A DNA stretch of 48,999 nucleotides, from contig WFOC01000111.1 in the NCBI GenBank assembly GCA_015488295.1, positions 1 through 48,999 of the forward strand, read 5' to 3'. This DNA is from Gammaproteobacteria bacterium (GTDB lineage: Bacteria > Pseudomonadota > Gammaproteobacteria > SZUA-229). Shown one piece after another: positions 16,407 to 17,742 of this stretch (its first letter is position 1; the number at the start of each line of letters is the position of its first letter). Position numbers and translations under genes: made by a program. Under the pieces are notes generated by a model. It was given only the letters and a program-made list of their open reading frames with translations, made no database searches and was not told where the DNA came from.

Positions 16407-16826
16407 ATGGATGCTATGATCGAGCGAAAGATTTACCATGATGGTTTGTTTGTCGTAACGCGCTGCACGGGCAAGATCACGGCAAAAGAGCTGGTCGCCA
16501 GTCAGTACTGGATGGTTGAAAATTTTGGCACAGGGATCAGGCCGGGTTTCAGCCAGATATTCGATGCTCTGCTGGCGGATGTCGATGCTATTACCGAAGA
16601 CGATATTCATCGTGTAGCGCAAATCAACATACACCATGCGAAAGAGCGCGGCAGCTTTTCGATGGCTATTCTGGCGGCAAAACCCTTCCCGCTGGCACTG
16701 GCCAGGCTGCATAAGCTGTTGTCTTCAGCGGCCAGTATCCGGGTGGAGATTTTTAGCGAAGAGGATGCGGCCTGTCAGTGGCTGGGCATTCAGCCACCGG
16801 CTGAGAGCGGTGAGCGGGGAGATTGA
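16407..16826 (+). CDS. Hypothetical protein, possible SpoIIAA/STAS-like fold
   Basis: A 139-residue soluble protein that I do not firmly recognise. The alternation of short strands and helices (IYHDGLFVVTRCTGKITAKEL, then a helix with FSQIFDALLADVDAIT, then SMAILAAKPFPLALARLHKLL, then IRVEIFSEEDAACQWLG) resembles SpoIIAA-like or STAS proteins of unknown role. A second start, ATG 16416, has the better spaced AGAGGT. It follows ttcA by 21 bp and may be the last gene of that run. Its 3' end faces the minus-strand small RNA. Confidence 0.6.
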   Translation: MDAMIERKIYHDGLFVVTRCTGKITAKELVASQYWMVENFGTGIRPGFSQIFDALLADVDAITEDDIHRVAQINIHHAKERGSFSMAILAAKPFPLALARLHKLLSSAASIRVEIFSEEDAACQWLGIQPPAESGERGD

Positions 16827-16939
16827 TGTTCAGGGGTGGTGGACGGGCTGATATTGTATCGTTACATGGCTGTAACTTATTGGAGCAATGCCGGAGTAAT
16901 TGCCGAGGAGCCAATATCTGGCCGTTTATTCGCGAGCAT

Positions 16940-16969
16940 AAAAAAACCCCAACTATTAAAGTTGGGGTT
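16940..16969 (-). terminator. Intrinsic terminator of the Csr-type RNA
   Basis: Perfect 10-bp stem AACCCCAACT/AGTTGGGGTT with a 5-base loop, followed on the minus strand by seven T. On the plus strand there is no T-run after the stem, so it is directional and cannot serve the plus-strand gene ending at 16826. Confidence 0.92.
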
Positions 16970-17155
16970 CCAGGTCCTTGCTTGGTGTTGAGCCTCGCGC
17001 TATAGCTGTTCCGTAAATTCCTTATCCGTAGAAAAATATTTCAATCCGTGTAAACTGAGCTTCCATATTTGGCTTCCCTAGTCCCTGTCCGTGTCAAAAT
17101 TCCGTAAGCTACCTATCTCCTTATGTCCTTAAGTGGCCCGTTCCCTGTGTCCTTG
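16940..17155 (-). ncRNA. CsrB/RsmY/RsmZ-type regulatory RNA (CsrA-binding)
   Basis: Read on the minus strand, this stretch has 15 GGA triplets in about 190 bases before its terminator, in contexts such as AAGGA, AGGGA, ACGGA and TAAGGA. About three would be expected by chance. The other strand of the same stretch contains none. No long frame covers it. The RNA ends in a strong intrinsic terminator (16940-16969). A possible -10 (CATAAT, minus strand, 17162-17167) sets the 5' end near 17155, which is approximate. In the Csr family such RNAs sequester CsrA/RsmA dimers through GGA loops. A GacA-type palindrome lies about 65 bp upstream. The regulators are not in the window. Confidence 0.82.
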
Positions 17156-17161
17156 ATGAGT

Positions 17162-17167
17162 ATTATG
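17162..17167 (-). promoter_or_regulatory. Candidate -10 element for the Csr-type RNA
   Basis: The minus strand reads CATAAT here, five of six matches to TATAAT. The -35 region 17 bp upstream is poor, which fits an activator-dependent promoter. Position is inferred from the first GGA motifs and the upstream palindrome. Confidence 0.4.
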
Positions 17168-17210
17168 ATCGCACTGTCAGATTTTCGCCATCAGCAGAAA
17201 AGGGAAGCTG

Positions 17211-17230
17211 TTGTAGGAAAAATCCTACAA
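17211..17230 (-). promoter_or_regulatory. GacA/UvrY-type upstream activating palindrome
   Basis: Perfect palindrome TTGTAGGAAAAATCCTACAA. Its core TGTAGG-N6-CCTACA has the same length and spacing as the GacA box TGTAAG-N6-CTTACA known upstream of rsmX/Y/Z in Pseudomonas, with one symmetrical A-to-G change in each half. The centre is about 65 bp upstream of the inferred RNA start, within the usual range for such sites. It is also only 48 bp from the dtd start, so an effect on dtd cannot be excluded. Confidence 0.75.
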
Positions 17231-17277
17231 GCGATTATGTTTGTTATAAGAAGCTTTCGCTTGCCGGTGAGTATTGT

Positions 17278-17742
17278 ATGATTGCTTTGTTGCAACGCAC
17301 CACCTCGGCCTCTGTCACGGTTGATAAACAGGTTATTGCCAGCATCAACCAGGGTTTGCTGGTGCTGCTTGGTGTTGAAAAAAAGGATGAACCGGGCAGT
17401 GTCGAACGACTGGCTGAAAAAATATTAAAATACCGCGTATTTGCCGATGCGGATGACAAAATGAACCTGAGTGTGCTGGATATTAAAGGTGCTGTCCTGA
17501 TGGTGCCACAGTTTACTCTGGCGGCCGACACGCAAAAAGGATTGCGCCCCAGCTTTTCCAATGCGGCAGATCCTGAAAAAGGATTAGCGATGTTTGCTCT
17601 GCTTATTGATATAATGCGGGTAAAAGGTGAGTCACTGTGCCATGATCTGCCGGATAACTGGTTGCAAACCGGCCAGTTTGGTGCTGATATGGCGGTCGAG
17701 CTGGTCAACGACGGACCGGTGACGTTTACCCTGAAAACTTGA
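17278..17742 (+). CDS. dtd: D-aminoacyl-tRNA deacylase
   Basis: Hydrolyses the ester of D-amino acids and glycine wrongly attached to tRNA. The 154-residue chain starts MIALLQRTTSASVTVD and has the two diagnostic motifs in slightly varied form: PQFTLAAD in place of the usual SQFTL, and NDGPVT for the Gly-cisPro motif. Length fits the family (about 145-155). It is divergent from the Csr-type RNA and is 35 bp upstream of hisB. Confidence 0.93.
   Translation: MIALLQRTTSASVTVDKQVIASINQGLLVLLGVEKKDEPGSVERLAEKILKYRVFADADDKMNLSVLDIKGAVLMVPQFTLAADTQKGLRPSFSNAADPEKGLAMFALLIDIMRVKGESLCHDLPDNWLQTGQFGADMAVELVNDGPVTFTLKT

Follow-up and report, generated by a model that had tools for sequence, protein, structure and literature searches.

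The minus strand between two plus-strand genes of this uncultured gammaproteobacterium carries a small RNA locus that is Csr/Rsm-type by design and lies, by covariance, outside the curated Rfam families. By analogy with characterised systems, we consider it highly probable that the locus encodes a decoy RNA of about 216 nt that would sequester CsrA, placed under a GacA/UvrY box with a BarA/GacS-type kinase upstream in the pathway. In the window, that is, the whole stretch of 48,999 nucleotides analysed, the locus and its surroundings comprise the following elements:

17278..17742 (+), dtd, D-aminoacyl-tRNA deacylase, divergent neighbour (TIGR00256 above cut-off)
17212..17229 (-), GacA/UvrY-type box TGTAGG-N6-CCTACA, here TGTAGGATTTTTCCTACA (assembly scan and homologues)
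17187..17194 (-), CTGATGGC, conserved CTGATRGC block upstream of the -35 position, between box and -10 (alignments)
17162..17167 (-), -10-like element CATAAT, about 7 nt upstream of the predicted start and retained by almost all homologues
16940..17155 (-), Csr/Rsm-type small RNA, about 216 nt, with a predicted start near 17155 (covariance-model match and family-wide conservation)
16969..17152 (-), array of 15 GGA motifs (direct count)
17107..17140 (-), 5' arms of the closing helices, CGGGCC at 17140-17135 and GTAGCT at 17112-17107 (compensatory changes)
16990..17007 (-), 3' arms of the closing helices, AGCTAT at 17007-17002 and GAGGCTC at 16996-16990 (compensatory changes)
16984..16992 (-), CTCAACACC, local form of a conserved C(A)AUCACC motif (comparison across homologues)
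16943..16971 (-), intrinsic terminator hairpin followed by a T run (terminator search)
16407..16826 (+), gene for a 139-aa hypothetical protein without Pfam or NCBIfam match, present at six homologue loci

The first-pass annotation had described a minus-strand GGA array between two plus-strand genes, confined to one strand, closed by a strong intrinsic terminator, preceded by TGTAGG-N6-CCTACA about 65 bp upstream of the supposed start and not explained by any coding frame, and all of these points were borne out. There are 15 GGA motifs in 184 nt (17152-16969, minus strand), and the 190-nt core (17161-16972, minus strand) contains 14 GGA and no TCC. Dinucleotide shuffles of this core gave a mean of 7.8 GGA (sd 1.7), with 14 or more in only 1 of 2000, and within the 49-kb sequence a density of at least 10 GGA per 190-nt window is reached only at the sRNA locus and only on the sRNA strand. 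Stops are present in all three reading frames of the sRNA stretch and the GGAs are spread over all phases; thus, no coding frame accounts for the pattern, and a coding explanation was ruled out.

The terminator at 16971-16943 (-) is the sole one found in the interval 16800-17400, and TGTARG-N6-CYTACA occurs at a single site in the 2.71-Mb assembly, at 17212-17229. The position of CATAAT (17162-17167) places the probable start near 17155 and the centre of the box about 66 bp upstream of it (about -66). The promoter search found no sigma-70 -35 match upstream of CATAAT, as expected of an activated promoter. The CTGATRGC block at 17187-17194 (-) is possibly a second activator contact.

Conservation and folding of the RNA

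A first covariance model, built from 13 sequences and with the box left out, identified homologues in 38 of the 54 family genomes (E<=0.1), and in these genomes the GGA array, the terminator and the promoter box are conserved as a unit. This model has one match in the source genome, the next having an E of 2.9, and with both models R1 and R2 the region 16940-17155(-) is the only significant match in the genome. All 39 homologues for which upstream sequence is available have the GacA-type box, 34 of them in exact form and five with one mismatch. Measured from its centre to the -10 (L121 excluded), the spacing is 52-53 bp, except for nine divergent members with 75-76 bp; the box of L133, L134 and L141-L147 has moved away from the -10 by 22-23 bp, or roughly two turns of the helix. 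The terminator is also conserved among homologues. The number of GGAs per homologue is 9-17, the sequence between them diverges, and at least 382 of the 496 GGAs in 40 homologues (at least 77%) have an A two bases before, in the ANGGA context that is the known CsrA core. Second, more diverged copies of the sRNA were observed at L121, L137, L138 and L139, away from dtd; the three genomes concerned (G007, G006 and G010) belong to the genus.

Two helices close the sRNA, one pairing GAGCC with GGCUC and the other GUAGCU with AGCUAU. Compensatory changes support them, from C-G to U-A in eight sequences and from U-A to A-U in nine. The arms can pair in 85% of cells (39 sequences), as opposed to 25-43% when the partner is slid. 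Moreover, the covariation score was reached by none of 500 shuffles, which ignore relatedness, and was far lower in the slid versions, a control that does not ignore it. The overall fold z-score of the source-genome sRNA is only -1.5, which is not convincing, and it was set aside as evidence.

These data bear on the possibility that the pattern reflects only chance or composition, with a palindrome that arose by accident in purine-rich intergenic DNA. The intergenic composition is indeed A-rich, with common GG and GA dinucleotides, but chance would hardly produce conservation throughout the family, with covariation and a constant box that occurs once in the genome, and a compositional origin, whose probability we regard as negligible, is refuted by this conservation.

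Within the genus, dtd could be located in 13 genomes; the sRNA adjoins it in 12 of these, and in the remaining one the locus (L100) is at a contig end. Given its position between two plus-strand genes and a dtd linkage that is widely conserved, the transcript might be taken for a leader or antisense RNA of dtd or of the upstream 139-aa gene. However, it is encoded on the opposite strand and has promoter elements and a terminator of its own. In addition, G006, G007 and G010 carry paralogous copies away from dtd, and no more than 6 of the loci include the 139-aa gene. We therefore judge this origin very improbable and retain that of an independent sRNA.

The first-pass annotation had proposed folding the RNA to see whether the GGAs fall in loops, and the predicted folds support this only partly. 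As a family trend it stands: in 37 of the 40 homologues pairing is lower for the Gs of GGA than for the remaining Gs, with a family mean accessibility of 0.55 versus 0.40. In the source-genome member the effect is weak (0.46 versus 0.42 for other Gs), while in E. coli CsrB the same values are 0.85 and 0.30.

Relation to known Csr/Rsm systems

An assignment to the known families by their Rfam models, suggested in the first-pass annotation, failed. No match to CsrB (RF00018), CsrC (RF00084), RsmY (RF00195) or RsmX/RsmZ was found in the window at the gathering score, none at the sRNA locus even at E<=10, and the loci of 15 homologues likewise gave nothing at E<=1; the same search detects E. coli csrB and csrC. 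The Rfam matches that did appear at the sRNA locus, at gathering and permissive thresholds, were only terminator look-alikes and were discarded. RsmY was matched once, weakly, at the distant locus L179, with an E of 0.01 and a score below gathering.

The arrangement of the locus is close to that of RsmY, RsmZ and RsmX of Pseudomonas, which also have a GacA-type palindrome upstream of the promoter, a short GGA-rich intergenic RNA and a Rho-independent terminator. The GacA sites of rsmY and rsmZ are located at -75 and -196 (PMC4950607), the former being close to the position found here. On the other hand, the new family has no Rfam match, carries 9-17 GGAs versus seven in RsmY, adjoins dtd and has a CAAUCACC motif, and its half-site differs, TGTAGG-N6-CCTACA instead of TGTAAG-N6-CTTACA. 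The number of GGAs is similar to that of E. coli CsrC (14), and activation is predicted, by analogy, to be of the UvrY type as in CsrB and CsrC. The known UvrY box is TGTAAGNNNNNNCTTACA, and UvrY binds upstream of its targets (PMC4682653). Unlike the new sRNA, CsrB is longer and has its UvrY site at about -183 (PMC4682653), much further away than here; CsrB and CsrC have no TCACC motif, have their GGAs far more clearly in loops, and are matched by Rfam. RsmW of P. aeruginosa is likewise GGA-rich and binds CsrA/RsmA, as the new sRNA would by analogy, but it derives from an mRNA 3' end and has a weak GacA site 830 bp off (PMC4950607), whereas the new sRNA has its own close box. Several GGA motifs are needed in such RNAs (PMC2375449).

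The genome also encodes the likely partners. A search for gacA, proposed in the first-pass annotation, recovered a GacA/UvrY homologue with 50% identity to E. coli UvrY in the order gacA-uvrC-pgsA, which is the same in E. coli; among NCBIfam models NF007018 matches it best, with a score slightly below the equivalog cut-off. A BarA-like kinase covers positions 1-909 of 920, also under the NCBIfam equivalog cut-off. Both proteins are thus taken as homologues, supported by synteny for gacA and by full length for BarA. Together with the conserved unit and the helix covariation, they favour the GacA-RsmX/Y/Z or UvrY-CsrB type of architecture that had been proposed.

The search for csrA had a mixed outcome, since the gene was not found in the source assembly, which is 88% complete, but 39 of the 58 relatives have it, other members of the genus among them. 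The gene order in relatives is alaS-lysC-csrA; in the source genome about 100 nt separate the end of alaS from that of its contig, and lysC was likewise not found in the assembly. Because alaS is at the contig end and lysC is also missing, the absence of csrA is best read as an assembly gap, and a true absence is held to be unlikely given that the contig breaks where close relatives have lysC-csrA.

According to the model that we favour, a BarA/GacS-type kinase would phosphorylate and so activate GacA/UvrY, and the phosphorylated regulator would bind the 18-bp palindrome centred near -66 and turn on the CATAAT promoter. The resulting sRNA, ending at the intrinsic terminator, would display ANGGA motifs, about 15 in all, of which some would lie in hairpin loops and many would probably be single-stranded inside the closing helix pair. 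It could then bind several CsrA dimers and relieve the mRNAs bound by CsrA; very probably, it soaks up this global regulator. We infer transcription, GacA binding, CsrA binding and mRNA derepression from what is established for CsrB/C and RsmX/Y/Z.

Linkage to dtd and a shared motif

The gene dtd is present at 30 of the 40 homologue loci. A class-wide scan, based on TGTAGG-N6-CCTACA in 370 genomes sampled across the class plus weak covariance-model matches, yielded, in 16 genomes from 13 other families, sites that have dtd or a TtcA-like gene as neighbour. At these loci a box and a GGA-bearing stretch lie by dtd, in divergent orientation, or by the TtcA-like gene (L179, L196, L205, L211, L213, L215, L222, L223, L235, L236, L256, L257, L259, L284, L286 and L290), and wherever dtd is the neighbour the stretch is divergent from it. 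At L256 and L257 the automatic strand choice fell on the other strand, the box being palindromic; the sequences, read directly, show that the divergent strand has stretches with GGA that run into terminators. Some loci outside the family carry modest numbers of GGA (5-7), and the weakest of them are candidates only. Most of the weak class-wide R2 matches were rejected as short terminator matches; L200, a 23S-5S spacer, and L204, which has no box, were rejected as well. Since neither the box scan nor the model search used dtd, its linkage is independent evidence, and RNAs with a box and GGAs of the same design appear to adjoin dtd in about a dozen other gammaproteobacterial families.

Many of the box and GGA RNAs have a CAAUCACC-like motif shortly before the terminator, a motif that resembles the 3' end of 16S rRNA. 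It lies at 16984-16992 (-) in the window and was also seen at L187, L205, L222, L223, L228, L231, L234, L245 and L259. TCACC is found in 35 of the 40 family homologues, and ATCACC in 9 of 25 box and GGA RNAs outside the family versus 1.1 expected, a rough count, since box and GGA content guided the choice of these loci and a few of them come from the same family. A limited literature search found no mention of the dtd link or of the CAAUCACC motif.

This motif raises the question of whether the GGA-rich RNA, though genuine, works chiefly by some other mechanism, such as that of an antisense or base-pairing sRNA in which the GGA repeats are purine-rich linkers. A non-GGA motif that is as well conserved as the GGAs and common to other families would fit such a function, as would the weak loop exposure of the GGAs in the source-genome member. 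Against it, the GGA number remains high (9-17) despite the divergence between the motifs, the ANGGA context fits CsrA and the GacA-type box is constant, so that we hold this function to be improbable and prefer CsrA sequestration. A more tentative idea, rather doubtful at present, is that the dtd-linked RNA is an ancestral gammaproteobacterial Csr RNA that stayed beside dtd, its sequence having drifted past the family models, and that CAAUCACC is a second functional element with a non-GGA role.

The design of the locus is known, and what is added here is a Csr/Rsm-type RNA family new to Rfam, from uncultured gammaproteobacteria. Where sequence models fail, CsrA sponges might be sought divergent from dtd with a GacA-type box. 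The fixed place by dtd suggests an old origin, as opposed to repeated invention, for some of the Csr RNA repertoire at least, and the shared CAAUCACC motif offers a concrete thing to test.

Downstream of the sRNA, the interval 16846-16925 is rich in palindromes and has matches of 88-93% at other loci of relatives, including one near a csrA locus (L007); it is probably a dispersed repeat.
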